Made by a program: the position numbers and the translations under genes. A DNA stretch of 21,096 nt from a virus: positions 1 to 21,096 of IMG/VR virus record IMGVR_UViG_3300032217_000663. The stretch is one strand, 5' to 3'. Under the pieces are notes generated by a model. That model was not told the origin of the DNA. It did not search any database and saw only the letters and a list, made by a program, of their open reading frames with translations. Shown one piece after another: positions 1 to 19,479 of this stretch (positions are counted from its first letter, which is position 1; the number at the start of each line of letters is the position of its first letter).

Positions 1-93
1 AAAACAATGATGACTCCAGACTTCTCGGCTTTGCTGGCTGGGACAATTAATTTCTGGTTCCTCGACCGTACTTTGGCTAAACGTGGGCTATGA
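1..93 (+). CDS. C-terminal end of a small protein, possibly a holin (partial, 5' end outside window)
   Basis: Frame 1 is open from the window edge and stops with TGA at 91-93, giving 30 residues. They include a hydrophobic aromatic stretch (FSALLAGTINFWFL) followed by a short basic end (DRTLAKRGL). The stop overlaps the lysozyme start as ATGA, so the two genes are translationally coupled. Holins often precede the endolysin, and some three-helix holins end in a hydrophobic segment plus charged tail. The lysozyme has no export signal of its own, so a holin is expected nearby. The holin call is inference from position and a 30-residue fragment; the existence of a coding end here is better supported. 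Confidence 0.5.
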   Translation, partial: KTMMTPDFSALLAGTINFWFLDRTLAKRGL

Positions 94-533
94 ACTTAGA
101 GTTAGCCGCCTCTCTGTGCCGTCAGTTTGAGGGCTATCGTGCCAAGCCGTACCTGTGTCCGGCTGGCATTCCCACGATTGGTTATGGTTCTACCTACTAC
201 GCAGACAAGCGCAAGGTAACTTTAGAAGACCCGCCGATGGATGAACCCACGGCTCGGGCACTTTTGATGGTTGAGCTAAACCATACGTATTTACCGGGAG
301 TTCTGCGTAACTGCCCCGGCCTGATTACTGACGAGCGTAAGTGCAATGCCATAGTTGACTTTTGTTACAACCTTGGTGTAGGACGCTTGCAAACATCTAC
401 GTTAAAGAGGAAAATCAACGCCAATGATTGGGAAGGAGCCAAGGAACAACTGATGCTCTGGACTAAAGGTGGCGGTAAAGTACTGCCGGGACTGTTTAAA
501 CGCCGCACGGCTGAGTGCGCACTGTTGGATTAA
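90..533 (+). CDS. Phage endolysin, GH24 (T4/P22-type) lysozyme
   Basis: Muramidase that cleaves the MurNAc-GlcNAc bond of peptidoglycan to release progeny at the end of infection. At 147 aa it has the usual size for a single-domain phage lysozyme. The catalytic signature is clear: Glu14 in QFEGYR, then eight residues to Cys23, then five to Thr29 in PTIGYG. This is the E-8-(D/C)-5-T layout of the family, here with Cys in place of the Asp of T4 lysozyme, as also occurs in phage relatives. The later DFCYNLGVG and the C-terminal LFKRRTAE segment are also typical. The N-terminus is not hydrophobic, so neither a signal peptide nor a signal-anchor is present and export should need a holin. It overlaps the preceding gene by 4 nt and sits only 3 nt from the next, so it is read in the structural operon. 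Confidence 0.93.
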   Translation: MNLELAASLCRQFEGYRAKPYLCPAGIPTIGYGSTYYADKRKVTLEDPPMDEPTARALLMVELNHTYLPGVLRNCPGLITDERKCNAIVDFCYNLGVGRLQTSTLKRKINANDWEGAKEQLMLWTKGGGKVLPGLFKRRTAECALLD

Positions 534-536
534 CCG

Positions 537-2624
537 ATGGCACTTAAAAAACTTGTACTAAAACCGGGGGTTAACCGGGAGAACACCCGTTATACCAACG
601 AAGGTGGCTGGTTTGAGTCCGACAAAGTGCGGTTTCGTCAGGGCACGCCTGAAAAGATTGGCGGTTGGGCACGCATATCCATATCTACGTTTAAAGGTAT
701 CTGCCGTTCTATTTGGAACTGGACAACGCTATCCAACCTTAATCTGCTGGGTATTGGCACTAACCTAAAGTTCTATTTGGAAAATGGTGGCGCGTATTAC
801 GACATCACCCCAATCCGTACAGCAGCAGTTCTAAGCAACCCATTTAAAACAACTAACCTAAGCGCAACCGTAACGGTAACTGCCTCTACACATGGCGCAG
901 TCACTGGAGATTTTGTTACGTTCAGCAACGTTGCAACTGTAGGTGGCCTAGACCTTAATGGTGAGTACTCTATTACGTATGTGGATGCAAACACCTACAC
1001 CATTACTGCATCTAGCGCGGCCACATCAACTGTGGCAGCAGGCGGTGGCACAACCGTTCAGGCGGTTTATGAGATTAACGTAGGCTTGGAGTATGAGATT
1101 CCCCTTACCGGTTGGGGTGCTGGCCCATGGAACTCAGGAACTTGGGGTAACGGCGGTACATCTACTTCTGCCTTACGTCTGTGGAGCCAGTCAAACTTTG
1201 GCGAAGACTTGGTTTTGGGATTCCGTGGCGGCCCAATCTATTATTGGGATGCAGCATTTGGAGCGGATAAATCTGCGTTTACAGTAACAATTGCTTCGCC
1301 TGCGGTAGTTACTTCTGCTCTTACATTGCCAAACAACACACCTGTTATCTTAACCAACACGGGCTACCCATCGGCATTGCCTACCGGTTTAACTGTGGGA
1401 ACTACTTACTACGTTAAGAATGCGTCTGGCAACACATTTAATTTGTCTGCCACACCGGGTGGAGCGGCCATTAATACCTCCGGCACACAGTCTGGAACAC
1501 ATTACATCCTTAACAACGCAGTTCCGGTGACATCTTTATACGGTGCCTCAGATGTGCCAATTATCCAAAATTACCTGTATGTGTCCGACATTAGCCGTTT
1601 TGTATTTGCTTATGGGTGCAATGATTACGGCTCTACAGTACAAGACCCAATGTTAATTCGCTGGTCGGATCAGGAATCGGTGGTTAACTGGACGCCTTCG
1701 GCTACCAATCAAGCAGGCAGTGTGCGTTTGTCTCACGGCTCAAGCATCATTACATCTATTCAAACTCGTCAGGAGATTGTGGTTTGGAGTGATTCTGCGG
1801 TGTATTCTTTGCAATACATCGGCGCTCCGGTAGTTTGGTCTAGTCAATTACTGGGCGACAACATCTCTATCATTGGTCAGAACGCAGTTGCTCAGGCTTC
1901 TGGTGTTGTTTATTGGATGGGTGTTGATAAGTTCTACGTGTACGATGGCCGTGTAAATACATTGAATTGCGACCTGCGCCGTTATGTGTACCAAGATATT
2001 AATTTGGGTCAAGCTCAACAATGTTTTGCAACCACCAACGAAGGCTTTAATGAAGTCTGGTTCTTCTACTGTTCTTCTGGCAGTAATACAGTAAACAGAT
2101 ATGTAGTCTATAACTACATGGAAAAAGTCTGGTACTACGGCACGATGGCACGATCAGCATGGCTGGATTCTGGTCTAAGGGATTACCCTATTGCGGCCAC
2201 ATACAATTACAACATTGTCAACCAAGAATACGGTCTGGATGATAACGAGACTGGAACGCCAGCCGGTATTGAGGCGTACATTTCTTCTGCTGAGTTTGAC
2301 ATTGACGATGGCGATAAGTTTGGGTTTGTTTGGCGTATGTTGCCTGACCTGACATTCTCAGGATCAGATGCAAGTCCTACACCCGAAGTTACGTTTACAC
2401 TGTATCCCATGCAGAACTCTGGTTCCGGAACAGGAACCCCCGCGGTCAAACCTGTGGATCAACTAACCGGTGCGCAGTACACAGTCACTGAAGGATTTAC
2501 TGGACAGATTAATACTCGTGTGCGTGGCCGTCAGCTTATTTTGAAGGTAGGTTCTAACCGCTTAGGTACTAACTGGCAGTTGGGTTCTACCCGTATTGAC
2601 ATCAGACCGGACGGCAGACGATGA
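537..2624 (+). CDS. Tail nozzle / DNA-stabilisation-like structural protein with two inserted beta modules
   Basis: A 695-aa virion protein of a type common in short-tailed phages. It starts MALKKLVLKPGVNRENTRY and continues with GGWFESDKVRFRQGTPEKIG, a conserved N-terminal block of proteins resembling P22 gp10 and T7 gp12 (tail hub or nozzle). That assignment rests on remembered family resemblance, not on a search. Two Thr/Ala/Gly-rich beta modules are visible at about residues 99-176 and 247-324. Both carry the pattern 'gate, value, YyV, NTyt/NTFnlS' seen in small barrels often annotated as FCCH-like in phage structural proteins. The rest has WS/NW blocks typical of beta-propeller-like nozzle proteins. 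The likely role is to extend the portal channel and retain packaged DNA. A GGA lies upstream of the ATG, and the stop overlaps the next start as ATGA. Confidence 0.68.
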   Translation: MALKKLVLKPGVNRENTRYTNEGGWFESDKVRFRQGTPEKIGGWARISISTFKGICRSIWNWTTLSNLNLLGIGTNLKFYLENGGAYYDITPIRTAAVLSNPFKTTNLSATVTVTASTHGAVTGDFVTFSNVATVGGLDLNGEYSITYVDANTYTITASSAATSTVAAGGGTTVQAVYEINVGLEYEIPLTGWGAGPWNSGTWGNGGTSTSALRLWSQSNFGEDLVLGFRGGPIYYWDAAFGADKSAFTVTIASPAVVTSALTLPNNTPVILTNTGYPSALPTGLTVGTTYYVKNASGNTFNLSATPGGAAINTSGTQSGTHYILNNAVPVTSLYGASDVPIIQNYLYVSDISRFVFAYGCNDYGSTVQDPMLIRWSDQESVVNWTPSATNQAGSVRLSHGSSIITSIQTRQEIVVWSDSAVYSLQYIGAPVVWSSQLLGDNISIIGQNAVAQASGVVYWMGVDKFYVYDGRVNTLNCDLRRYVYQDINLGQAQQCFATTNEGFNEVWFFYCSSGSNTVNRYVVYNYMEKVWYYGTMARSAWLDSGLRDYPIAATYNYNIVNQEYGLDDNETGTPAGIEAYISSAEFDIDDGDKFGFVWRMLPDLTFSGSDASPTPEVTFTLYPMQNSGSGTGTPAVKPVDQLTGAQYTVTEGFTGQINTRVRGRQLILKVGSNRLGTNWQLGSTRIDIRPDGRR

Positions 2625-7807: not shown

Positions 7808-9520
7808 ATGGGTATTGAACAACTGGTAGATAGCTTTATGGGTAACCCCAAGCCTTTGGAAGCAAAGGTTGAACGGGACAACAAAGGGCTGCCCCCCGGC
7901 GCTATTCCTAGAGATTTGGAAGAAGCTATTGCTCTGCAAAAGATTGCGGAAGTACAAACCGGCGCTCAAAACCAACAAGCTATGCAAGCTGGGGGCGCTC
8001 AGCCTTCTGTAGTCCAAAAGCTACACCAGATGTTAGCTATGGCTCAACAACGCCAGCAGGCCCAGATGCCCCAAGGTGCACAACAAATGCCCGGTCAGAT
8101 GCCTAGACCCATGCCTCAAGGTATGCCTCAACAGCCCGTGATGGCTGCGCATGGCGGTAGCTTGGATCAGCTTATGTCTAACCTTGGCCGTCATTACGCT
8201 AACGGTGGAATTGTTGCATTCTCTAAACCCACCGAAGAAAACAACCGAAGTTTGGTAAAAGACCCAGATTCCGAATCGTCTCAATTTGTGCAAGACATTG
8301 GCAAATTACCCCAAGCGTTTGACGAAATGAAACAACGCGCTCGTGAAGAAGATGCCGTTAGAGCAGAACAAGATCGCCGTATGGCGGAACGCCAACAAGC
8401 GATGCAAGACGCTCGTAGAAAAACCAGTTTGTTTAACTATTTATTTGGTTCTCCTGCAACCGAAAAAGAAGGCTTAGCCAAACTTACAGAGTTGTCAAAC
8501 GCGCCATTGTCTACACCTGCGGGAACATCTACGGCAGCGCCAGCCGCTCCTTTGGATGCAGAGACTCAAAAGCTTTTAAGATTAGCCGCTTCTAAAGCAG
8601 ATACCGGCGTAAATACAAACCCCGCGTTGAAGCCAGTTGCTCCCGCACCCGCAGCTAATACAAACCCTGCTGCTCCTCGCGTTAATGTGCCGTCCACAAA
8701 TACTCCCGCGACTACACAAGCCATGGACCCCAACAGTTTGCGTGGTCTGCTTGAAGCCGGTATTAGAAAAGACCTTGGCAAAGATGAAGAAGCTGAGTGG
8801 CAAAAAGGCGCTACACGTCATGAACAGTTCATGGGTCTGGACAAACTGCTTGCACCAAAGAACGCTCGTATTGCAGAAGAACAAGCGCTTATCAAGAAGA
8901 TTCAAGGCGAACGCTTGCCTGCATGGGTAGCCGGTGCTGAACGTGCGTCTAAACCTATTTTGGCCGGTGGTATCGGCACAATGTTGAACCAACTTGGTTC
9001 TGGCATGCAAGGCCAACGTGAGGCATATAACACTGAAGACTTAGGCTTCCTCGACAAAATCGGGCGTATGCAAGACGAAGTTGACAAGCTTAAGATTGAA
9101 GGCAAATACAAAGCCGCTGCCGCTGGCGAAGCCTCGATCAAAGACGCTATCGCTGATAGACGACAAGCTATGCAGTCTGGCACAAGTCTGCTTAATACAG
9201 ATGAATTGATCGCCCAACGTAAACAAGCGGCTAAAGATGCTGCCGCGGCTCGTCTTGCAGCCACGGGTAATCGTGGCGAATTAGCGGCTGATAAACAACA
9301 GTTGGCTGAACTCAAAGCCCTGCAAGGCGCGGTCACATCACAGCTTAAAAATGCGTTTGGTACCGAAAGAAAACGCCTGCAAACTCAGCTAGAAGCTATC
9401 AATGGCGAGATTGCAAAAATGGCGGGTATGAGTACAATGGCTGCAGCCCCCGGCGCAGGAAGCCCCGGCGGAACCCCTGCTGATATTAACGCCCTTCTGA
9501 AAAAATACGGGGGCAAATAA
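7808..9520 (+). CDS. Internal virion-like coiled-coil protein with GGIVAFS motif
   Basis: A 570-aa protein whose ribosome site AAGGA overlaps the previous stop codon. Residues about 40-115 are Gln/Met/Pro-rich. A Gly-rich motif follows, AAHGGSLDQL and then YANGGIVAFS at about 130-138; the latter is a recurrent phage motif of unknown function. Residues 165-215 form a charged coiled coil (REEDAVRAEQDRRMAERQQA) followed by SLFNYLFGSP. A Pro/Ala/Asn linker spans about 235-300. The C-terminal half is mostly helical, with coiled coils from about 420 and a terminal DINALLKKYGGK. The composition matches its two neighbours and suggests an ejected or core protein made with them. Scaffolding is a less likely alternative, because scaffold genes usually sit next to the capsid gene. 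Confidence 0.7.
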   Translation: MGIEQLVDSFMGNPKPLEAKVERDNKGLPPGAIPRDLEEAIALQKIAEVQTGAQNQQAMQAGGAQPSVVQKLHQMLAMAQQRQQAQMPQGAQQMPGQMPRPMPQGMPQQPVMAAHGGSLDQLMSNLGRHYANGGIVAFSKPTEENNRSLVKDPDSESSQFVQDIGKLPQAFDEMKQRAREEDAVRAEQDRRMAERQQAMQDARRKTSLFNYLFGSPATEKEGLAKLTELSNAPLSTPAGTSTAAPAAPLDAETQKLLRLAASKADTGVNTNPALKPVAPAPAANTNPAAPRVNVPSTNTPATTQAMDPNSLRGLLEAGIRKDLGKDEEAEWQKGATRHEQFMGLDKLLAPKNARIAEEQALIKKIQGERLPAWVAGAERASKPILAGGIGTMLNQLGSGMQGQREAYNTEDLGFLDKIGRMQDEVDKLKIEGKYKAAAAGEASIKDAIADRRQAMQSGTSLLNTDELIAQRKQAAKDAAAARLAATGNRGELAADKQQLAELKALQGAVTSQLKNAFGTERKRLQTQLEAINGEIAKMAGMSTMAAAPGAGSPGGTPADINALLKKYGGK

Positions 9521-9530
9521 GGACTGAGCA

Positions 9531-12500
9531 ATGGCTGATCTAACCGCCCTTTACAACGCACTTCGCAACGCTGACGCTGCGGGAGACACGGAGGGGGCTA
9601 GACGGCTTGCTCAGTACATTCAACAAAGTCAAGGCCAAGCGGCTCCAATTCCAGAAGCCAAGCCTGCGCCGTTCTCGTTGGCAGATACCGCACTATCTGC
9701 AGGCCAAAGTGCTTTAGGTGCTACCAAATCACTGATTGAAGGCGTAACAGGTGCAGGTAGCGCCCCCGGTGAATATCTTGAAGGGTTGCAAAAATCACTG
9801 GGTGAGAAGTTGACCCCAGAACGCAAAGCTGAAATACAACGCCGTACTGCATTAGAAAAACAAGCTGCCGAAACTGGCAGGCCATTAGAAGAAATTGCTG
9901 CCGGTCTTGGCGGTGTTAAAGAAGCCCCACTTACTGTATTTGCGCAAGCCGCAGGCTCATCGGTACCTACCGTTTTGGGCGGTATTGGGGTTGCCGCTTT
10001 GGGCGCAACTTTAGGCGCTCCTGCTGCTGTTGCTGCAGGTGTTGGTATTGCCGCTAAGTACTTGCTCGGAGCCATTCAAGGTGGTGGTGAGGTCAAAGGC
10101 ACAATTTACGACGCAGTTAAAGACAAGCTAATGGAGAACAATGTTCCAGAAGCGACTGCCAAACGACAAGCTGCCGCCGCTCAAGATTATTTGGGTAAAA
10201 ACTGGGACACGATTGCGCAAGGTTTAGGTCTTGGCGCAATTGCCGGTGGTACTGGCGCGGAAACAGAACTCCTCAAACGATTTTCAAAACCAATTGCCAA
10301 ACAGATTGCGGCTAAAGAAGCCGCTAAAGTAGCTGAACAAAGCGCAGTCAAAGAGTTTGGTAAAGCGATTGGCAAAGAGTCGTTCACCGAAGGTTTGCAA
10401 GGCGGCCAATCACAATACGCTGAAAATAAAGCGTTGACTCGTGAGGGCTACATTACTGACGCACTGAAAGGTGTGTACGGCGCTGCTGCCCGTGATGCAG
10501 CTATGGGCGCTATTGGTGGCGGTGGTGTCCACGCTATTGCTGGAGGCCCAGCAGAAACTGTCAAACCCGCACCTGCGCCAACCCCTGAACCCGGCCCTCA
10601 GATTGCCCCTGAAGCGCCAAAAGGCACGCAAGGTGCGTTGTTTACCGAAGAGGAGATGGGCAAGCGTGTACCTGAGCCTAAAGAGAAACCAATTACCCAG
10701 CCTGCGGCCACAGCGCCCCAAGGTGAACAACTTGGACTTGGTTTAGATTTTCAGCGTGAGTACGCGGACATCGTTAAAGAACGTGAACGCCTCAAAGCAC
10801 TTCCACAAACAGCGGAAGTTAAAACTCGCATAAAAGAATTGTCAGACCAACTCATGTCCCTGCATGAGAATGAAGTTGAAAGCATCCGTGCTGAAAAAGC
10901 ACAGGAAGAAGAAGCCCGTAAAAAATTCCCCGGTCTTGCTGAAACTGCACCAATCATTCCTCGCACGCAAGCTGATTTGTTTACTGAGGAAGAAGCACCA
11001 ATCCCTGCGGCACAACAAACCGCAGAAGAAATTGCGGAGCCTGTAAAACGCGAACCCAAGGGTGGCTACCAATACAAACTGCCCTTGCGCACTGTGCCAG
11101 AAGGTAAAGAGCCAAACCGTGCGCTGCCTATCCCCGTACGACCTGATGAAATTACCATGCAGGACTTGGAAGACCTTGGGCTTCCCTTGCGCTCCGCTAA
11201 ATCGTGGCTGGAACAAAACGTTGTTGGTAAAACTCCTGCCGAGATTCGTGTATTGGTAGGTAATAACCCTGACTTACTGCTACAAAAAGGCTCTCGCGCT
11301 GAAGTATTGAAATACCTGACAGCACCCGTACCTGAAGGGTTTAAGGAGGCACCCCGTGTCAAGACCACTACCGAAACGAATTTGCCTAAGCAAAGACCTC
11401 AGCCCAGAGGAGGTCAGCCAAGCGTGGGAATATCTGGTCAGCCTGCCGGAGCCAAGTTGGTACAACCCAGAGCCGGAGTGCCCACCACCACCGGAGCACC
11501 TGCAACACCTAACCGACTCGGACTGGCACCTACTGGACAGCCTGCTGGCAAGGGAATTACTCCTACGACAACGGCTCAGCCTACACTAAATGCGCCTACA
11601 ACTACTCCTGTTGCTCCTAACACTGCTGCCCCTGCCGCACCTGCTAAAGGACCAAAGAAAGCTGCTAAGCCGACTCCTGAAGCTACCACTACCAAAGCGG
11701 CTGAAGCACCGGCTCCTGCTGGAATTACTGAAGTTGTAAAAAGCCAACACACGCGGCTTCAAGAAGTCATCGACAACGAGTCCCTGCCACAGGCAACGCG
11801 CAAGCAAGCCGAAAAGAACATGGACTTGCTGGATGATCCAGACATGAATGCCACTGCGGATGATCGTAAGGGCAATCAAACCTATGTAAACAACTTCTTA
11901 AATCGTGTTGAGGGGCTTAAGTCCGTAGCAGTCGCGGAAGGGCAATCACTCGACAGCCTAAAAGAAGAAGTTAAAAACACCAAAGGTATCCTTGGCGCGG
12001 CCCTGCGACGCATGGTTGCGTCTGGCAAAGTCGTATTAGAAGAAGCTCATCCGTCTGGCAAAAAGATTGGTGGCTTCTACGACGGTGAAAAAGTTACGCT
12101 ATACGCAAATGGCATTCCATCCGGTAGCTCAATGGCTGTTGCATTGCACGAAGTCGGTGCCCACCTCGGCATGGAAAGGTTGCTAGGCAAGAAGCAATAC
12201 AATGCAGTCATTGATCGTATCTTGGATATGGTTGCCAAAGCCGATGGTTCTACTGAAGCTAAGATGGCGCAGGCTGCGTACAAACGTATCCCTGTATCCG
12301 ACTTTAAACGCGGCGTTGGTCGTGACGAAATGGTTGCGTACTTTATTGAAGAAATGGCTAACTCCGAAGCGGCGGGTACACTGCCAAAGTTTGGACCATT
12401 GCGCAATCTGTGGAATCAAATTAGAACTGCGGTAATTACTTCAATCAACAAAGCTTTGGGTACTAATTTTGGTATCAATGATTTATCCGCCCAAGATATT

Positions 12501-15188
12501 TTGGGTATCGCTAAGTCTGCACTGGTGTCTGAATCTAAGACGGAAGTAACTAAAGGCGAAGACAAACAGATGTTCTCTGTGTCTGCGTCTACGGAATCTC
12601 TAGTTGACTCCATGGGGCCGCTTGATGCACAGACCAAGTCTGGCTTAAAAAATCTTATTGCAAGTGTTAAGTCTACGCCTGAGATTGACTACGTGACTCA
12701 GTTCCGTACGCAAGTAACGGACATTGCTGCCACTATTGAAAAGCGTTTGTCATCCAAATTTGATGGTGCGGTACGCGACTCGATGGGTAAGCTAAACCCC
12801 ATGGGCTTGTATCGTCAGGCGCAAGACTACACAAAGATGTTGCTGGAATACTTCCAAACCGGAACGCTGTACAAAGACCCTGCCACTGGTTTGTGGAAGT
12901 CTGGCATGGGGGAAGGCGTACGCCCACCCGCAGAAGTCTATGCGTCTATTGACAAATACGCTGCAAAGAATGGTTACAGCCGAGAACGCGCTACGCAAAT
13001 TGCTAGCCGCGTACTGGAAGGTGTCCGTCTTGATGAAATGCGCCGGTCAAACAAAACTGGCATGACCAACTTTGCCCTTCATCTGAAAGACAGCGAAATC
13101 GACCAGTTGGTGCGTGAATACAACGCTGATCCAGACTTGCAAGCAATGAGCAAGCTCATGGACGAGGCCCGTATTGCAATGGTCGACAACATGGTTAAGG
13201 TAGGTCGCTTGACTGCCGAAGAAGGCACTAAGTGGAAAGAAGTCGTAGGCTACGTACCGTTCGATCGCATTGAGGACTTTGCAACCAACTTCAACAAGGC
13301 TAAGAAGATTAGCGGTAAAGGTTTGGCACAACTTGGCAAGCTGCCGGAGTTAGTTGGTTCTATTAACCGCCCAGTGGGCAATGTGTTTGATAACTATATC
13401 AACACGCTTGGTTGGATGGTCGGCCAGACCATGAAGACTGATGCTACTTTGCAAACCTTGCGCAGTTTAGAAGACCTCGGCTACGCCAAACAGCTAGGCC
13501 CATCAACGCAAAACAAACCTAATGTGGTTGGCGCGTATGTGAAAGGTGAGATGCGTTATTGGTCAGTGCCAAGCAAGTACGACGTCATGGCGTTTAAAGA
13601 CCTGAACCCACCTAAGGCGGGTTGGCTACGTGCCATGGGCCAGTTCTCCAATGTGCTGCGTAAGACCGTGACCGTGCTGCCACCATTTGCATTAAAGCAG
13701 GTAACGGACGACGTGCAACGTGCCATCTTAACTTCCGGTGTGCGTAACCCCGGCGCTTTGGTGTGGATGTCTTTGACTAACTTCCCCAAGTTGGCACTGG
13801 CAGAACTGCGCGGCATTCAGCATCCAGCGGTTAAAGAATTTGGTCGCCTTGGCTTAACCGGTGAGTACGACTTTGAAGCCGGCAAGCCTGCTATATCTTT
13901 ACTAAAAGACTTAGGCTACAAGAAGCGTGGTAAGTTTGAAGCTTTGATGCACCGTTTGGATGGCATTACCCGTGCGTCTGACTTGGCAGTTCGTAAAGCT
14001 ATTTACGATCAAACTTTAAAAGAAAGCAACGATGAGTTGTTAGCACAGACCCGTGCCCGTGAATTCATCAACTTCCGCCGCCGTGGTGCAAGCGACTTTG
14101 TGGGTGCGATGGTTACGACTGTTCCGTTCTTTAACGCATACATCCAAGGTATGGACGTTCTGTACCGTGCAGCATCTGGCAAGGATTCAAGTGCTTCTGT
14201 CGATCGTGCGCAAGCGCGCCAATTGTTCTGGAGTCGCGCCGGTACAGTCATGGTGCTGAGTTCGCTGTATGCAATGGGCAAGGACGATGAAGACAAAGAC
14301 TACCAAGAGATGGACCTGCGCACCCGCGATGGCAACTGGATTCTTCCCGGCGGCTACAAGATTCCTGTGCCGGGCGAACTGGGCGCTATCTTTAAAGTCA
14401 TACCCGAACGCATCGTGGAATACATGCGCCGCCAAGGTACACCTGAGGAACAGACCGCATTTGAAGCCATGCGCACAACGCTGTCTTACATGTACGAACA
14501 ATACTTAGGTCGTGCAGTGCCAGTGCCGCAAGCTATTAAGCCAGTCATGGAAGCATGGGCAAACAAGTCATTCCTAACAGGCCGCGATTTGGAAGGCTAT
14601 CACCACAAGGCGATGGACCCCAGCATGCGTATGACTGAGCAGACTTCTGAGTTGGCCAAAGCGATTGCAGTATTTAGCCGCGACCAGATTGGTGTGGAAG
14701 TTTCCCCCATCATGATTGACAACGCGCTGCGCGGATACTTTGGCTCATCTGCTGCCATGGCCACGATGGTGACGGACAGCTTGCTCAACCCAACGCGAGT
14801 CGATCGCCCACTGCATAAGTACGCACTGCTTAGCAACTACATGTACGACCCAGTTGGCACACGCCGCATGACCGAGTTCTACGAGGAACGCGAAAAAGTT
14901 GGCAAAGCAAACAACACCTTGAATGAGTTGATGCGAACCGACTTGGCTCGTGCAGAACAATATGCCGAAGCCCATGCCGATGAGTTGCAGTTAGAAGGTG
15001 CAATTAACTCTACGCTTGAACAACTGGAACGCACCCGCGCTTACCGCAAGTGGCTTAACAGCCCCGAAGGTGCCGCTGACATGAGCAAAGAAGAACGCGA
15101 AGCCGAACTCAAAGAAATCAAACAGATGGAACTTGAGTATGTAAACTGGGTTCGTGAAGCTAAGAACGAGATTCGCAAGGTTCAGTAA
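9531..15188 (+). CDS. Giant polyvalent-like virion protein with zincin-like HExxxH motif
   Basis: An 1885-aa protein, the last gene of the + operon, with TAAGGA 8 nt before ATG. It opens with a helical block ALRNADAAGDTEGARRLA common at the N-terminus of very large phage proteins. Gly/Ala-rich hydrophobic segments at about 141-185 and 230-245 could insert in membranes. Gln367 and Gln480 start QGALF-TEEE and QADLF-TEEE, which resemble sliding-clamp-binding motifs. Residues about 615-730 are Pro/Thr/Ala linker. A zincin-like site lies at 873-878 (HEVGAH, preceded by VAL), with Glu933 and Glu940 downstream as possible third ligands. From about 1511 (EFINFRRRGASDF, then VPFFNAYIQG, DDEDKDYQEM, IPVPGELG) it resembles the LPD38 domain of phage/plasmid polyvalent proteins. 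Such proteins are proposed to be packaged and injected with DNA to counter host defences. The activity itself is inferred. Confidence 0.72.
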   Translation: MADLTALYNALRNADAAGDTEGARRLAQYIQQSQGQAAPIPEAKPAPFSLADTALSAGQSALGATKSLIEGVTGAGSAPGEYLEGLQKSLGEKLTPERKAEIQRRTALEKQAAETGRPLEEIAAGLGGVKEAPLTVFAQAAGSSVPTVLGGIGVAALGATLGAPAAVAAGVGIAAKYLLGAIQGGGEVKGTIYDAVKDKLMENNVPEATAKRQAAAAQDYLGKNWDTIAQGLGLGAIAGGTGAETELLKRFSKPIAKQIAAKEAAKVAEQSAVKEFGKAIGKESFTEGLQGGQSQYAENKALTREGYITDALKGVYGAAARDAAMGAIGGGGVHAIAGGPAETVKPAPAPTPEPGPQIAPEAPKGTQGALFTEEEMGKRVPEPKEKPITQPAATAPQGEQLGLGLDFQREYADIVKERERLKALPQTAEVKTRIKELSDQLMSLHENEVESIRAEKAQEEEARKKFPGLAETAPIIPRTQADLFTEEEAPIPAAQQTAEEIAEPVKREPKGGYQYKLPLRTVPEGKEPNRALPIPVRPDEITMQDLEDLGLPLRSAKSWLEQNVVGKTPAEIRVLVGNNPDLLLQKGSRAEVLKYLTAPVPEGFKEAPRVKTTTETNLPKQRPQPRGGQPSVGISGQPAGAKLVQPRAGVPTTTGAPATPNRLGLAPTGQPAGKGITPTTTAQPTLNAPTTTPVAPNTAAPAAPAKGPKKAAKPTPEATTTKAAEAPAPAGITEVVKSQHTRLQEVIDNESLPQATRKQAEKNMDLLDDPDMNATADDRKGNQTYVNNFLNRVEGLKSVAVAEGQSLDSLKEEVKNTKGILGAALRRMVASGKVVLEEAHPSGKKIGGFYDGEKVTLYANGIPSGSSMAVALHEVGAHLGMERLLGKKQYNAVIDRILDMVAKADGSTEAKMAQAAYKRIPVSDFKRGVGRDEMVAYFIEEMANSEAAGTLPKFGPLRNLWNQIRTAVITSINKALGTNFGINDLSAQDILGIAKSALVSESKTEVTKGEDKQMFSVSASTESLVDSMGPLDAQTKSGLKNLIASVKSTPEIDYVTQFRTQVTDIAATIEKRLSSKFDGAVRDSMGKLNPMGLYRQAQDYTKMLLEYFQTGTLYKDPATGLWKSGMGEGVRPPAEVYASIDKYAAKNGYSRERATQIASRVLEGVRLDEMRRSNKTGMTNFALHLKDSEIDQLVREYNADPDLQAMSKLMDEARIAMVDNMVKVGRLTAEEGTKWKEVVGYVPFDRIEDFATNFNKAKKISGKGLAQLGKLPELVGSINRPVGNVFDNYINTLGWMVGQTMKTDATLQTLRSLEDLGYAKQLGPSTQNKPNVVGAYVKGEMRYWSVPSKYDVMAFKDLNPPKAGWLRAMGQFSNVLRKTVTVLPPFALKQVTDDVQRAILTSGVRNPGALVWMSLTNFPKLALAELRGIQHPAVKEFGRLGLTGEYDFEAGKPAISLLKDLGYKKRGKFEALMHRLDGITRASDLAVRKAIYDQTLKESNDELLAQTRAREFINFRRRGASDFVGAMVTTVPFFNAYIQGMDVLYRAASGKDSSASVDRAQARQLFWSRAGTVMVLSSLYAMGKDDEDKDYQEMDLRTRDGNWILPGGYKIPVPGELGAIFKVIPERIVEYMRRQGTPEEQTAFEAMRTTLSYMYEQYLGRAVPVPQAIKPVMEAWANKSFLTGRDLEGYHHKAMDPSMRMTEQTSELAKAIAVFSRDQIGVEVSPIMIDNALRGYFGSSAAMATMVTDSLLNPTRVDRPLHKYALLSNYMYDPVGTRRMTEFYEEREKVGKANNTLNELMRTDLARAEQYAEAHADELQLEGAINSTLEQLERTRAYRKWLNSPEGAADMSKEEREAELKEIKQMELEYVNWVREAKNEIRKVQ

Positions 15189-15490
15189 ACCCGCCAGACT
15201 CTGGCACCGTACCGCCCGTATTCACAACGGGCGCGTACTTCTATTTTGATTTTAAGAAACCTAGTGGCCGGTAGGAGTGCGTCTCGCACCTGCGTGGGTG
15301 TTGCAGTGGTCGGGAGAAAGAACGAACTTCCAAGCGTCAACCGTTCCCAATGAAGATAATACTCAACTCCAAACAAGGTGAGTACTCTCTTGTCATCCGA
15401 CAGCTTTGGCTGCGGTTTAGGTTGGGGTTTAAGCGGCTTAGGTGTTCGTACTATTTTCCGCTTGCGCGAACGCCGTTTCGTCGATGCCAA
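15182..15490 (-). CDS. Small basic protein of unknown function, TTG start
   Basis: A 102-aa protein starting at TTG (15490-15488), with GGAGA 5 nt upstream, and ending at TGA 15182-15184. The N-terminus is strongly basic (STKRRSRKRK) and is followed by a Pro/Lys/Gln stretch. A folded part then reads FGVEYYLHWERLTLGSSFF, next a short helix, and ends CEYGRYGARVWRVY. The 'GSSFF-P ... EYG-yG-RVWRV' pattern matches a kind of small phage protein I recognise but cannot name. Its start lies inside the 3' end of the primase-helicase gene (53-nt overlap) and its stop overlaps the convergent + strand gene by 7 nt. The basic tail suggests nucleic-acid binding, which is inference. It explains the apparent gap between the two large genes. 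Confidence 0.68.
   Translation of the reverse strand: MASTKRRSRKRKIVRTPKPLKPQPKPQPKLSDDKRVLTLFGVEYYLHWERLTLGSSFFLPTTATPTQVRDALLPATRFLKIKIEVRARCEYGRYGARVWRVY
15209..15253 (+). terminator. Probable rho-independent terminator of the late (+) operon
   Basis: A perfect 7-bp stem (cgcccgt 15213-15219 with acgggcg 15227-15233) has a 7-nt loop and extends by gtac/gtac across a one-base bulge. The T-rich tract ttctattttgatttt follows at 15239-15253. It lies 21 nt after the stop of the giant protein gene, as expected for an operon terminator. It is embedded in the C-terminal codons of the convergent small gene. The T-tract is interrupted, so efficiency is uncertain. Confidence 0.6.
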
Positions 15491-18284
15491 TTACGTCTCC
15501 ATCAAAGATGTAGCAGCGCACTGCAATACCACTAAGCCCACCTACGGCTCCTGCACCAATACGAGTTGGATGTGACTTGCCCTCGTGCTTCAGATACCCT
15601 GCCGTGGTCAAGCGGGTTAAGCTATCTTTAACGTCCACTTGTCTGCTTGTAAAGTACTTACGCAGTTCAGCCACAGGGATTGCCAACGTTTTGGTATCAG
15701 GGTCGTATCGCATTACCAGCTTGCCCTTCGGAGTCATCGCGGGGCGCTCGGGCATACCGCCCTTGGGTGTGTATGCGGCAACCATAGCATTGTTGACGTT
15801 CTCGTTGATGAAAGCGCCAAGTGTTTCTTGTGCAATCGTCATTGGGTTGCCAACGCTGGATGTGTTAGAGGCAATTGATTCGCTAACTACCCCGAGTGCG
15901 TACTGATAAATGCGTGGAATCTCAATGGCAATTAAACCCAACTTTTCTGCAATCAGCGCGCCAACAAAAGCACACGTCAATATGCACGAATAGAAACGGT
16001 CTGTCTGGTCTAGTCCCAGTGCCTTGTCCACCTTGGCTTGCATCTTAGCCAGTAGGTTCATAACGTGGTCGTGGTTGTCAATGATGTATTGGATGTACAC
16101 AGGACCTGCCACGCCGTAGTTAGCGTTCAGTTTGCCAAACACTTCATCAATCTCAGTCTTGCTTGAGCCAGTGTACTTATGGAATGCAACTTCAAGCACC
16201 CGACGAAGCTCGCCATCTGCCGTACTCTTGAGGTTTTGCAGGGCATCCACAACCGAGGCGTTACCTGATGAGATTGTGATGTTGCACCACGTTGTGTTGT
16301 TAACTCGCAACTTATTACTCTGCGATTCCATACGGTGCTTGCCTCGCCCTGAGGTGAATCCATAAGCGTAGTCAGACAGAACCTCTGGCTTCTCGTTGGT
16401 AATCTCATCCACAGTAAATGCAATGCTGTTCATCATGCCAAGCAAGTGCATCTTGGACGCGTAGGTGTCGTCTTGTTTCAGCAAAAGCGTGTCAGGGTTT
16501 CCAAAGATAGAGTTGACCACCATCTGCGCCGTTGACTTGCCAGAGCCTGAGCCGTTGTGCTTGAGGTGAACTAGCGCGCCTTTTACGTTTTGCTTGGGGC
16601 CAATGAACTTCAGCAGAGGTGAGCCAAAGCCAAAGAACAAAGCCAAAGCATGCGGCTCAAGGCCGGGACGGTTGTAGAAGTTAGCGATCTTGCTCCACTC
16701 CTCCAGTGTGCCAGTTGGTTTGAATTGCTCAGCCAACTCTCGTGTACCGCTTGATGGGGGCGCAAGCTTAGTGCCCACTGCCGTGTATTCCAGTTCACCC
16801 ACGACGAAACCAAGTCCGTCAGGTGTCCATCCCATTTGGCTGCGTGTTTTGTTCGCAGCGTACTGCGACTGCAGTTTGCGTAGTGTCGAAGCAAAATAAG
16901 CCATGATTGCATCCAAGTGTTTTCCGTAAGCGACCACACCATTTTTGATAAGTAGGTCGCGCATTTTGTCTTTAGTGAACAGCGTAGTCACCGGCGCGTA
17001 GAACCTGCGGATACCGTCTTGCTTCATGTGCAAGTTAAGCCCCACCATCTCGCCTTCACCGTTGCCGTGCTGATCTGAGTCAAAGAACCGTTCTGTCAGG
17101 TATAGGTCGTATGGGTAGATTTCAACTTCCTTTTCCTCACCATCAGACGTACGTTCTTTTTTGTACACGCCACCTGCCGCACCACGAAAGTATGGGAATG
17201 GGTACGCGGGGATTGACGTTACAAGTGCCGGTGCAAATTCGTCCTCAGGAGTCTCGATGATGTACTGATCGTCCTCAACTGGCGCAGCCTCAATAAACTT
17301 ACCCAACAGAATTGGTGTAGAAATTTTGTGCGTGCAGCCTTCGCAACCAGACGGATTGTTGCTCCGATACCAGTCGCATGTATATGGGCCTTTGGTCTCA
17401 GCCGCTTTAGCGTCCGTATCCGCTGGATTGTATTCGGGATGTCCTTTGGACATCTTGTGGATAGCCCACTGCCCATCTTCACAACGCACGGCAATAGAAA
17501 GCGCGGCACGCCACAACGGTTCTTCAAGCGTAGCTGCATTCGTTACCGCATGTTGGAGTTGCCCACAGCCGGTCTTAGCCGCGCAGCGTATCATGATGCG
17601 TCTAAAAGAACACTTAGGGTACTCGCCACCTACGTCTTTGGACGTTTCGTCCATACCAAACTGCTTAGCCGCACTCAAGTCCATCGCAGGGGCGGGTAGA
17701 TATTCAATAAAGTCAGCAAGGGATACAGGCGCACCCACTGCAATAATCTGTACAGGTCTCGAGGTTTCGTTCTTAAAGTTATGTGTGCCGGGTATGCGTA
17801 AGATACGCGCGGCATCGGCAGTTACCGCAGGGTCAGCAAACAGTTTGTTTTGAGCGCACAAGCGCTTCAATGATTTTGCGTGACGCACCCAATCGGATGC
17901 AGGCACGTCTTCAGTCAAGGGCCAATAAACATGTAAGCCACCACCTGAGTTAACAAGCGTTGGGCTTGGGAGTTGTGTTGCGGTAATGAATACGGATAGT
18001 GCTTGGGCAGCGGCGGCTTGGTCGGCATAGGGCTTACCAGTTCCGCAGTCTAAGTCTAGAAAGAACGCTCGTAAAAACGCTGCGTTATCAACCTTGCGAC
18101 CTGAGTCATCGTTGAATGTGGCGAGTGCGAAGTACGCATCTACGCCTTGAGAATCCATACCCGAACCGACAGCCTCCACGTCTTCAATCGTCCGTTGAAA
18201 CGACTGCTTGACGGCACCTGACCGAATACCCACTGTGCAATAAATGCCTTGCGTAGGTAATACGGATTTGAGAAAGTCAGTCAC
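15438..18284 (-). CDS. Bifunctional primase-helicase: AEP-type primase fused to DUF927-like P-loop helicase
   Basis: A 948-aa replication protein expected to synthesise primers and unwind the fork. The N-terminal domain has archaeo-eukaryotic primase motifs: FFLDLDC with Asp77 and Asp79 (metal ligands), SGGGLHVYW at 113-121 (nucleotide-binding His118), and AARILRIPGTHNFK at 158-171. A helical region (258-290) precedes a zinc-binding cluster C303-x10-C314-x2-C317-x-H319. The C-terminal ATPase has Walker A GSGSGKST (578-585), Walker B FTVDEITN (Asp626, Glu627) and a sensor-like ITISSGN (669-675), with nearby RR 694-695 as a possible arginine finger. The start is GTG 18284-18282 with GAGG 4 nt upstream; no better in-frame ATG exists nearby. 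It follows a terminator and the HTH gene, and its 3' end overlaps the next gene. Comparable fusions occur in plasmid and phage replicons. The polymerase is not in this window. Confidence 0.88.
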   Translation of the reverse strand: MTDFLKSVLPTQGIYCTVGIRSGAVKQSFQRTIEDVEAVGSGMDSQGVDAYFALATFNDDSGRKVDNAAFLRAFFLDLDCGTGKPYADQAAAAQALSVFITATQLPSPTLVNSGGGLHVYWPLTEDVPASDWVRHAKSLKRLCAQNKLFADPAVTADAARILRIPGTHNFKNETSRPVQIIAVGAPVSLADFIEYLPAPAMDLSAAKQFGMDETSKDVGGEYPKCSFRRIMIRCAAKTGCGQLQHAVTNAATLEEPLWRAALSIAVRCEDGQWAIHKMSKGHPEYNPADTDAKAAETKGPYTCDWYRSNNPSGCEGCTHKISTPILLGKFIEAAPVEDDQYIIETPEDEFAPALVTSIPAYPFPYFRGAAGGVYKKERTSDGEEKEVEIYPYDLYLTERFFDSDQHGNGEGEMVGLNLHMKQDGIRRFYAPVTTLFTKDKMRDLLIKNGVVAYGKHLDAIMAYFASTLRKLQSQYAANKTRSQMGWTPDGLGFVVGELEYTAVGTKLAPPSSGTRELAEQFKPTGTLEEWSKIANFYNRPGLEPHALALFFGFGSPLLKFIGPKQNVKGALVHLKHNGSGSGKSTAQMVVNSIFGNPDTLLLKQDDTYASKMHLLGMMNSIAFTVDEITNEKPEVLSDYAYGFTSGRGKHRMESQSNKLRVNNTTWCNITISSGNASVVDALQNLKSTADGELRRVLEVAFHKYTGSSKTEIDEVFGKLNANYGVAGPVYIQYIIDNHDHVMNLLAKMQAKVDKALGLDQTDRFYSCILTCAFVGALIAEKLGLIAIEIPRIYQYALGVVSESIASNTSSVGNPMTIAQETLGAFINENVNNAMVAAYTPKGGMPERPAMTPKGKLVMRYDPDTKTLAIPVAELRKYFTSRQVDVKDSLTRLTTAGYLKHEGKSHPTRIGAGAVGGLSGIAVRCYIFDGDVIGIDETAFAQAENSTNT

Positions 18285-18347: not shown

Positions 18348-18596
18348 TTACTTACGCTTGGATAAACGCGCAATAACTTTAGGCATCGCTGCCTGATGGC
18401 GAGCGCGTGGCACCGATTTACCAGTCAGCCAGTTGTACACGCTCGCACGAGTCACGCCTAACATCTGCGCAATCTCGGTAATTGGTGTACCTTTGTTGAT
18501 ACAGACATCAGCCAACTGCATAACAATCGGCCTCTGGTCTGCGTCTTCAACTTTCTGAATGAAAAGGGTGTCATGCCCCCGCAACCTATTACGCAT
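18348..18596 (-). CDS. Small helix-turn-helix DNA-binding protein
   Basis: An 82-aa protein from ATG 18596, or 89 aa from GTG 18617; neither start has a strong ribosome site, so the choice is uncertain. The C-terminal half is a canonical HTH: ITEIAQMLG (helix 2), turn, VTRASVYNWLTGK (recognition helix), then a basic end ARLSKRK. It resembles small phage repressor or regulator proteins of the Cro/XRE or Fis/resolvase-HTH kind. The start overlaps the end of the candidate ssDNA-binding gene and a strong terminator follows its stop. A perfect palindrome in the promoter of the same operon is an obvious candidate operator for it; that link is inference. An alternative is a DNA-organising accessory of the replication module. 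Confidence 0.82.
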   Translation of the reverse strand: MRNRLRGHDTLFIQKVEDADQRPIVMQLADVCINKGTPITEIAQMLGVTRASVYNWLTGKSVPRARHQAAMPKVIARLSKRK

Positions 18597-19479
18597 CTTC
18601 GTCAGTAGCCCAGTCACTCAAGATGTCAGACACATTCTTTGCCGCAGCAGGAGCCTCAGGCTTAGCTTTAGCGGGAGCGCGTTTCACAGGTTCAGCCACT
18701 TCTTCTGCCTCAACTTTAGCGGCAGGCGCTTCCTTGAATGCTTGTGGTAACGCGGGTGCGCTCTCGGCCTTGGATGGAACCATCTTCAGCTCAATTGCTT
18801 GACGCGCGTCTTCGGTTTGGCTCTGTGCTTTACCCAGTTCCCACTCTTCTTTCGTCAAGGGGCGTACAGCACGGAACTTCAACACGGGCACTGCTTCGGC
18901 TGTGTCGAAGCGAGCTTCGGTCACGATGCCTGTAATCGGAATACCGTGTCCTGACAAGAACTTACCAAAGGCTTGCAATGGCATCTTCTCACCTTCAGCA
19001 CGACCAAAGTATGACTTGGCAGGAACTGACAAGCGGTAGATGTTGCCACCAATGTCGTTCTCCAAAGCCACAGCCAAACGCTTGCTGTAACGGCAGGCAC
19101 GAGCCTTACCATCGCCTGAGCCTTCGATGTTCTGAGGGCAGGTAGCGCACGCTTTGCTTTGTGGGTTAGCCACTTCTTCGTTGGGCACAACGCCTTCGGA
19201 AGACCAGCATGCAGGCTTGATGTCCTTGCCTTCTTCGTATTTGTCTGCATAGAACGTGCGTGTCACGCCTTTGCCAGATGCAATTACCACGAAGTTCATG
19301 GCACGGTCTTCGTTCTTGGCAACTTCTTCGCCGCCTACGACCATGCGCCACACGCCGCCTTTGATTGAGATTTGCTTGCCACCAGAGCTACCTGCGATGT
19401 CTCGGGTAGTAGCGTCGGAAGCTTCGCGCAAATAGTCAGGGATAACGGAACCGGATTTGAAAAGTGTCATGTTACTCAT
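18589..19479 (-). CDS. Candidate ssDNA-binding replication protein with Cys4 site and acidic tail
   Basis: A 296-aa protein starting at ATG 19479 with AAGGA 8 nt upstream. Residues 35-205 look like a beta-rich single domain (SIKGGVWRMVVGGEE, RAMNFVVIASGKGVTRTFYA). Four Cys form a plausible zinc site: C91, C111-x2-C114 and C129, next to KARACRYSKRLAVAL. The C-terminal 60 residues are an Ala/Pro/Lys/Glu linker ending in the acidic, aromatic tail DILSDWATDEDA. OB-fold core, zinc site, flexible linker and acidic tail together recall phage ssDNA-binding proteins such as T4 gp32 (zinc, acidic tail) and T7 gp2.5 (acidic tail). No clear homology to either is visible by eye. The place between a Gam-like gene and the primase supports a replication or recombination role. 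I am confident it is a gene, and less so about its function. Confidence 0.6.
   Translation of the reverse strand: MSNMTLFKSGSVIPDYLREASDATTRDIAGSSGGKQISIKGGVWRMVVGGEEVAKNEDRAMNFVVIASGKGVTRTFYADKYEEGKDIKPACWSSEGVVPNEEVANPQSKACATCPQNIEGSGDGKARACRYSKRLAVALENDIGGNIYRLSVPAKSYFGRAEGEKMPLQAFGKFLSGHGIPITGIVTEARFDTAEAVPVLKFRAVRPLTKEEWELGKAQSQTEDARQAIELKMVPSKAESAPALPQAFKEAPAAKVEAEEVAEPVKRAPAKAKPEAPAAAKNVSDILSDWATDEDA

Follow-up and report, generated by a model that had tools for sequence, protein, structure and literature searches.

A fixed slot with exchangeable zincin families in a large phage LPD38 protein

Zincins are the commonest domain of polyvalent proteins, and the roles proposed for them are self-processing or attack on the host. 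Some of these metallopeptidases carry an HEXXXH motif, as described by Iyer et al. 2017, who also discussed how polyvalent proteins in general have taken up zincins repeatedly and listed LPD38 as a phage-only polyvalent domain (PMC5512222). HExxxH is also found in M49/DPP III and in MATCAP/TMCP1, where it is catalytic (PMC10499314). Several proteins of this kind, or close to it, are virion components. In phage JC1, mass spectrometry of virions detected 51 peptides of the LPD38 protein gp69 (PMC9144972), and the Dar proteins of phage P1, DdrB and DarB among them, are large internal head proteins that are co-ejected with the DNA (PMC12810830, PMC5512222). P1 DdrB has a C-terminal MPTase and is reported to be cut before packaging; its architecture differs from that of the protein studied here. 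A zincin is also present in the N4 virion RNA polymerase, which is packaged uncut (PMC5512222).

The window, i.e., the whole stretch of DNA that was analysed, is a complete virus record of 21,096 bases. The gene under study and its setting are as follows.

90..533, + strand: phage lysozyme (PF00959 match), upstream of the 1885-aa gene on the same strand
537..2624, + strand: virion structural protein (phrog_3287), upstream of the 1885-aa gene on the same strand
9519-9523: AAGGA, ribosome-binding-like, 5' of the ATG of the 1885-aa protein
9531..15188, + strand: CDS of the 1885-aa LPD38/zincin protein, a single uninterrupted frame with an ATG start
9531..10580, + strand: residues 1-350, N-terminal part, variable, its hydrophobic stretches rich in Gly/Ala
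10581..11765, + strand: residues 351-745, Pro/Ala-rich linker with QxxLF/QxxLxL motifs, 40-80% conserved among near relatives
about residues 745-1010: exchangeable cassette around the zincin domain
11913..12410, + strand: zincin domain, about residues 795-960, delimited by alignments and the AlphaFold2 model
12588..15185, + strand: residues 1020-1885, C-terminal scaffold, conserved (39-94% identical among relatives)
14292..14798, + strand: LPD38 (PF18857), residues 1588-1756, from Pfam

The initial annotation had described a giant open reading frame in a virion operon, with hydrophobic Gly/Ala segments and an LPD38-like C-terminus. All of this was borne out: the frame at 9531-15188 (+) encodes 1885 aa, it is preceded on the same strand by the lysozyme and by the phrog_3287 protein (whose relatives carry the annotations stabilization, needle-head or tail protein), the hydrophobic segments span residues about 140-345, and the match to PF18857 is significant (E 2.7e-29, 103 bits for a gathering score of 27). 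LPD38 was the only domain found by the Pfam scan of the protein, and no Pfam-A model matches the zincin domain. The PHROGs match, over residues 1241-1832, is to phrog_18222, to which no function is assigned. The recognised domains are the zincin, as the sole enzyme, and LPD38. The annotation had also called the protein polyvalent-like. This holds in that it is a polyvalent-type phage protein with a zincin and LPD38, but the strict sense of several activities applies only to those relatives that add an ADP-ribosyltransferase domain. The latter (ART-PolyVal) lies between the zincin and the scaffold in L008, L015, L030, L079, and L114 (in L015 below the curated cut-off) and is absent from the window's protein. 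Both HExxxH zincins and LPD38 are already known from polyvalent proteins. PADLOC gave no match.

We gathered relatives of the zincin domain from viral contigs and aligned 46 sequences, which are 22-90% identical to the window's. The positions that matter most are these.

12147..12164, + strand: HEVGAH, residues 873-878, invariant (n=46), on model helix 867-885
12327..12329, + strand: Glu933, predicted third metal ligand, in ExxA936, invariant (n=46), on model helix 930-947
12348..12350, + strand: Glu940, secondary, conserved at 90% or more

The only fully invariant columns are H873, E874, H878, G880, A916, E933, and A936 (H86, E87, H91, G93, A129, E146, and A149 in alignment numbering). This set is HExxxH plus ExxA, i.e., the presumptive metal ligands and general base. 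His873 and His878 are predicted to bind the metal and Glu874 to act as the general base, while the third ligand is probably E933 rather than E940, since E933 is invariant together with its ExxA and E940 is conserved at 90% or more. All these residues lie exactly where the initial annotation had put them. It had also remarked that HE-x3-H differs from the standard HExxH. The spacing is indeed unusual, but it has already been reported in polyvalent proteins (PMC5512222). The suggestion of a degenerate site was rejected: no catalytic or ligand position varies among the 46 sequences, and the predicted fold is that of a zincin. Comparison of the window with four relatives that share its domain gave dN/dS ratios of 0.03-0.05 for residues 820-960 and 0.06-0.16 for the C-terminal part. 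We considered a recent transfer of the zincin between the window and L001/L002 (82-98% identity in the zincin, 65% in the scaffold), and discarded it: synonymous sites are saturated in the zincin and the scaffold alike (pS 0.6-0.7), so the high zincin identity reflects purifying selection, and it does not count here as evidence for exchange.

The AlphaFold2 model of the 175-aa zincin core (mf598546cb0d9), computed with the 46-sequence alignment as input, has a pLDDT of 87.1 and a pTM of 0.78. It agrees with the zincin-type domain proposed from the sequence and has strands at 834-837, 848-850, and 855-858, a helix at 867-885 carrying HExxxH, and a second helix at 930-947 carrying E933. The modelled three-strand sheet, HExxxH helix, and Glu helix agree with the core reported for polyvalent zincins (PMC5512222). 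An earlier model of 250 aa had low-confidence ends and gave weak matches only, ArdC among them; the 175-aa core was used in its place. Foldseek found no significant match in the PDB: the first five entries were MATCAP (E 0.11-0.19), and IrrE/PprI, selecase, and jannalysin came lower. The first 38 VIA-align matches are almost all zincin-type chains, every one with Z under 8. The best are lethal factor chains (Z 6.8, rmsd 4.4, 135 residues), some aligned on their non-catalytic part; the others include IrrE (Z 5.5, rmsd 4.1, 92 residues; range of IrrE/PprI Z 5.0-5.5), MATCAP (Z 4.7, rmsd 5.6, 122 residues), and lugdulysin (Z 4.7). Against predicted viral proteins, a large polyvalent-domain protein came first (E 1.9e-4). 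As far as the model goes, these matches indicate a shared fold and not family membership. Sequence searches of the PDB with four alignments (A4, A5, A6, and A2) yielded no credible relative. MATCAP/TMCP1 and DPP III are zinc peptidases that share the HExxxH motif with the window's domain, but the PDB profile search revealed no sequence relation to them and returned no M49 chains; the shared HExxxH alone is insufficient for M49 membership. The zincin profile found no relative among 84,980 genomes of bacteria and archaea, and the scaffold profile had a single weak match there, on a 3-kb MAG contig. Since these searches gave nothing more, we make no host assignment.

Iyer 2017 described MPTases in phage polyvalent-type proteins that resemble the window's in having a three-stranded sheet and, after the HExxxH helix, a helix with Glu, but the main text of that work mentions neither clamp binding nor any swapping or shuffling of families at a single fixed slot (PMC5512222). 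We collected homologues by searching with the C-terminal scaffold, the whole protein, and the zincin, and obtained 69 distinct members, all on metagenomic contigs. Five of them reach the contig edge before the slot and were left out of the slot count. All 64 homologues that extend far enough upstream (64/64) have an HExxH or HExxxH domain there. Single-linkage BLAST clustering split these zincins into families Z1 (n=22, motif HE[LIM]GH), Z2 (n=21, HELLH/HEL[IV]H/HESVH/HEATH), Z3 (n=20, HEV[GA]AH, including the window), and a singleton (n=1). Each of the three large families has its own invariant motif and its own third Glu, and profile-profile comparison between them gave probabilities of 4-21%. 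We treat the four families as unrelated at this sensitivity, which is not a proof of non-homology.

A quick tree built from the C-terminal part requires at least 19 changes of zincin type, where the least possible is 3; even when only well-supported branches are counted, each large family needs 9-10. L003, which is the closest to the window on this tree, is 94% identical in the C-terminal part and has a zincin of type Z1. The clearest pair is L018 (Z1) and L012 (Z2), whose DNA is 94-96% identical on both sides of an unrelated cassette of ~1.1 kb. The encoded proteins are 96-100% identical N-terminal to the cassette and mostly 88-100% identical C-terminal to it, against 12-35% inside. These comparisons of sequence show that the zincin at the slot was swapped for apparently unrelated zincin families many times, and none was lost. 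A fixed slot with zincin replacement between near-identical phages seems new; we did not find it in the literature searched. One might object that the differences in the cassette stem from chimeric metagenome assembly, since every homologue used is a metagenomic contig. We give this hardly any credit: the changes, at least 19, are spread over many contigs, and all frames are open across both cassette junctions. Moreover, the arrangements repeat in independent samples (L011/L018, which encode the same protein; L010/L017; L052/L053), hence chimeric assembly does not explain the swaps.

Cultured phages have related proteins. A homologous C-terminal part was found by tblastn in the Escherichia phages PTXU04 and Pondi, in Vibrio phage 1.232.O, and in Achromobacter phage CF418P1, with only 24-27% identity to the window. 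Pfam recognises LPD38 in PTXU04 and CF418P1. All four have an HExxxH upstream of the C-terminal part (HEIIVH, HEIVVH, HELVVH, and HEVVGH), and the zincin profile matches the proteins of CF418P1 and Vibrio phage 1.232.O.

The N-terminal half has a feature of its own. The consensus of beta-clamp-binding peptides is QLxLF (PMC4549789), and the window's protein contains the following similar motifs.

10629..10643, + strand: QGALF, residues 367-371, clamp-binding-like
10728..10745, + strand: QLGLGL, residues 400-405, clamp-binding-like
10968..10982, + strand: QADLF, residues 480-484, clamp-binding-like
11070..11087, + strand: QYKLPL, residues 514-519, clamp-binding-like

Relative to shuffled sequences, QxxLF/QxxLxL is 10.9-fold enriched in the linkers of the homologues and 7.4-fold in their N-terminal parts, and occurs at 0.6-0.7 times the expectation in the zincin, the scaffold, and other ORFs; because the pattern was picked after viewing the window and the homologues are related, these counts are support and not a formal test. 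In 59 linkers, Q is found at position -3 in 107 instances and 29 distinct contexts (10 or fewer at other distances); relative to its own frequency, no other residue approaches it. The arrays resemble peptides that bind the beta sliding clamp, a likeness of motif that does not by itself show binding. There is no such enrichment in the LPD38 proteins of eight cultured phages (0-1 motifs each), which is why we take the arrays to be limited to the window's clade. Sixteen related contigs (34-68 kb) encode no DnaN-like clamp, so that the partner would be the clamp of the host. In the literature searched we found neither these arrays, which in this clade seem new, nor a paper joining polyvalent proteins with clamp binding. 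Two distant polyvalent proteins have near-perfect clamp consensus motifs, QLSLFR in L130 and QLGLFG and QLALFP in L132.

Our main reading, to which we give a probability of about 0.6, is that this is an ejection-type virion protein of a short-tailed phage, with a working HExxxH zincin between its N-terminal and LPD38 halves. We infer its location in the virion and its ejection from its likeness to JC1 gp69 and, for delivery with the DNA, to the P1 Dar proteins; the place of its gene in a virion gene cluster also links it to the virion. The chain would consist of the variable N-terminal part, the motif linker, the zincin, an optional ADP-ribosyltransferase (in relatives), and the LPD38 scaffold, and would enter the host together with the phage DNA. 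H873, H878, and E933 would bind one metal ion and E874 would activate water for proteolysis. The zincin might then cut its own chain near the junction of the N-terminal and C-terminal parts, during maturation or after ejection, and the cut would free the N-terminal effector half into the host. We see nearly even chances for this last part. Self-cleavage at the junction is favoured because the slot is fixed and unrelated enzymes can substitute for each other provided that the site they cut moves along with the cassette. No conserved cleavage site was found, and, judging by the uncut packaging of the N4 polymerase, self-cleavage is not guaranteed. A more speculative extension, which we hold to be rather unlikely, is an injected effector platform in which N-terminal peptides dock onto the host DnaN and the interchangeable zincin of the fixed slot releases or delivers that half. 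As part of the same joint and equally tentative proposal, the activity of the zincin would be indispensable and its family freely replaceable as a cassette.

The other readings differ in what the zincin would cut, if anything. The initial annotation had suggested an injected anti-defence or host-takeover factor. In line with this, the zincin may be an effector that, once injected, has a host protein (of defence, replication, or transcription) as its substrate instead of its own chain, with swaps reflecting host-specific targets or inhibitors. We consider this a serious possibility, of less weight than self-cleavage. The zincin is often the sole recognised enzyme of its protein, whole families are replaced between close relatives, and the adjacent slot may hold ART domains, which act on proteins. 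It would also be odd for a zincin to merely free other effectors when it is usually the only recognised enzyme. Yet a contested interface would be expected to change fast, whereas the HEVGAH family, with a dN/dS of 0.03-0.05, is under very strong purifying selection, and there is no known target. The zincin could instead act in trans on other virion proteins during capsid maturation, given that it belongs to a presumed virion protein encoded in a virion gene cluster. This seems improbable: we found no conserved partner or cleavage site, and the scaffold and neighbours of L018 and L012 are 93-98% identical, so a shared site would have to suit unrelated proteases. Finally, the departure of HExxxH from HExxH might suggest a domain with a degenerate site kept as a structural spacer. 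This is very improbable, as the site residues are invariant down to 22% identity, the substitutes are always other complete zincins, and HExxxH is catalytic in DPP III and TMCP/MATCAP (PMC10499314).

Since families were swapped many times and the zincin was never lost, any competent zincin seems acceptable at the slot. That one scaffold always kept a zincin while the family changed at least 19 times suggests that the activity is needed, not a particular enzyme. The pairs L012 and L018, and the window and L003, are matched material for finding the required substrate. The coliphages PTXU04 and Pondi, with HExxxH in their LPD38 protein and E. coli as host, make the question open to laboratory test, and the zincin-profile matches in Vibrio phage 1.232.O and CF418P1 likewise allow tests. 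The clamp-like arrays suggest a contact with the host that is not described in the papers found.

Further variation was observed along the protein. Residues 1-350 are 78-90% identical to L015 and only about 22-44% to L016, L033, and L001. Among relatives with similar scaffolds there are several unrelated or very divergent types of this N-terminal part, a second possible point of exchange. Some larger relatives have two zincin-like motifs per polypeptide: HEVGAH at 1905 and HEVQH at 2179 in L129, HELTH at 1730 and HEVGAH at 1965 in L155, and HEVGAH at 1600 and HELTH at 2050 in L158. An HEGRHR motif lies between the zincin and the scaffold in L120 and L121, and upstream of the zincin in L110. 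Downstream in the window, a 948-aa primase/helicase-like protein (15438-18284, - strand; DUF927, phrog_25314) is encoded convergently with the 1885-aa gene, and a 296-aa protein (18589-19479, - strand; phrog_27714) has a cysteine cluster, CWSS...CATCPQN...CRYSKR, that is possibly metal-binding.
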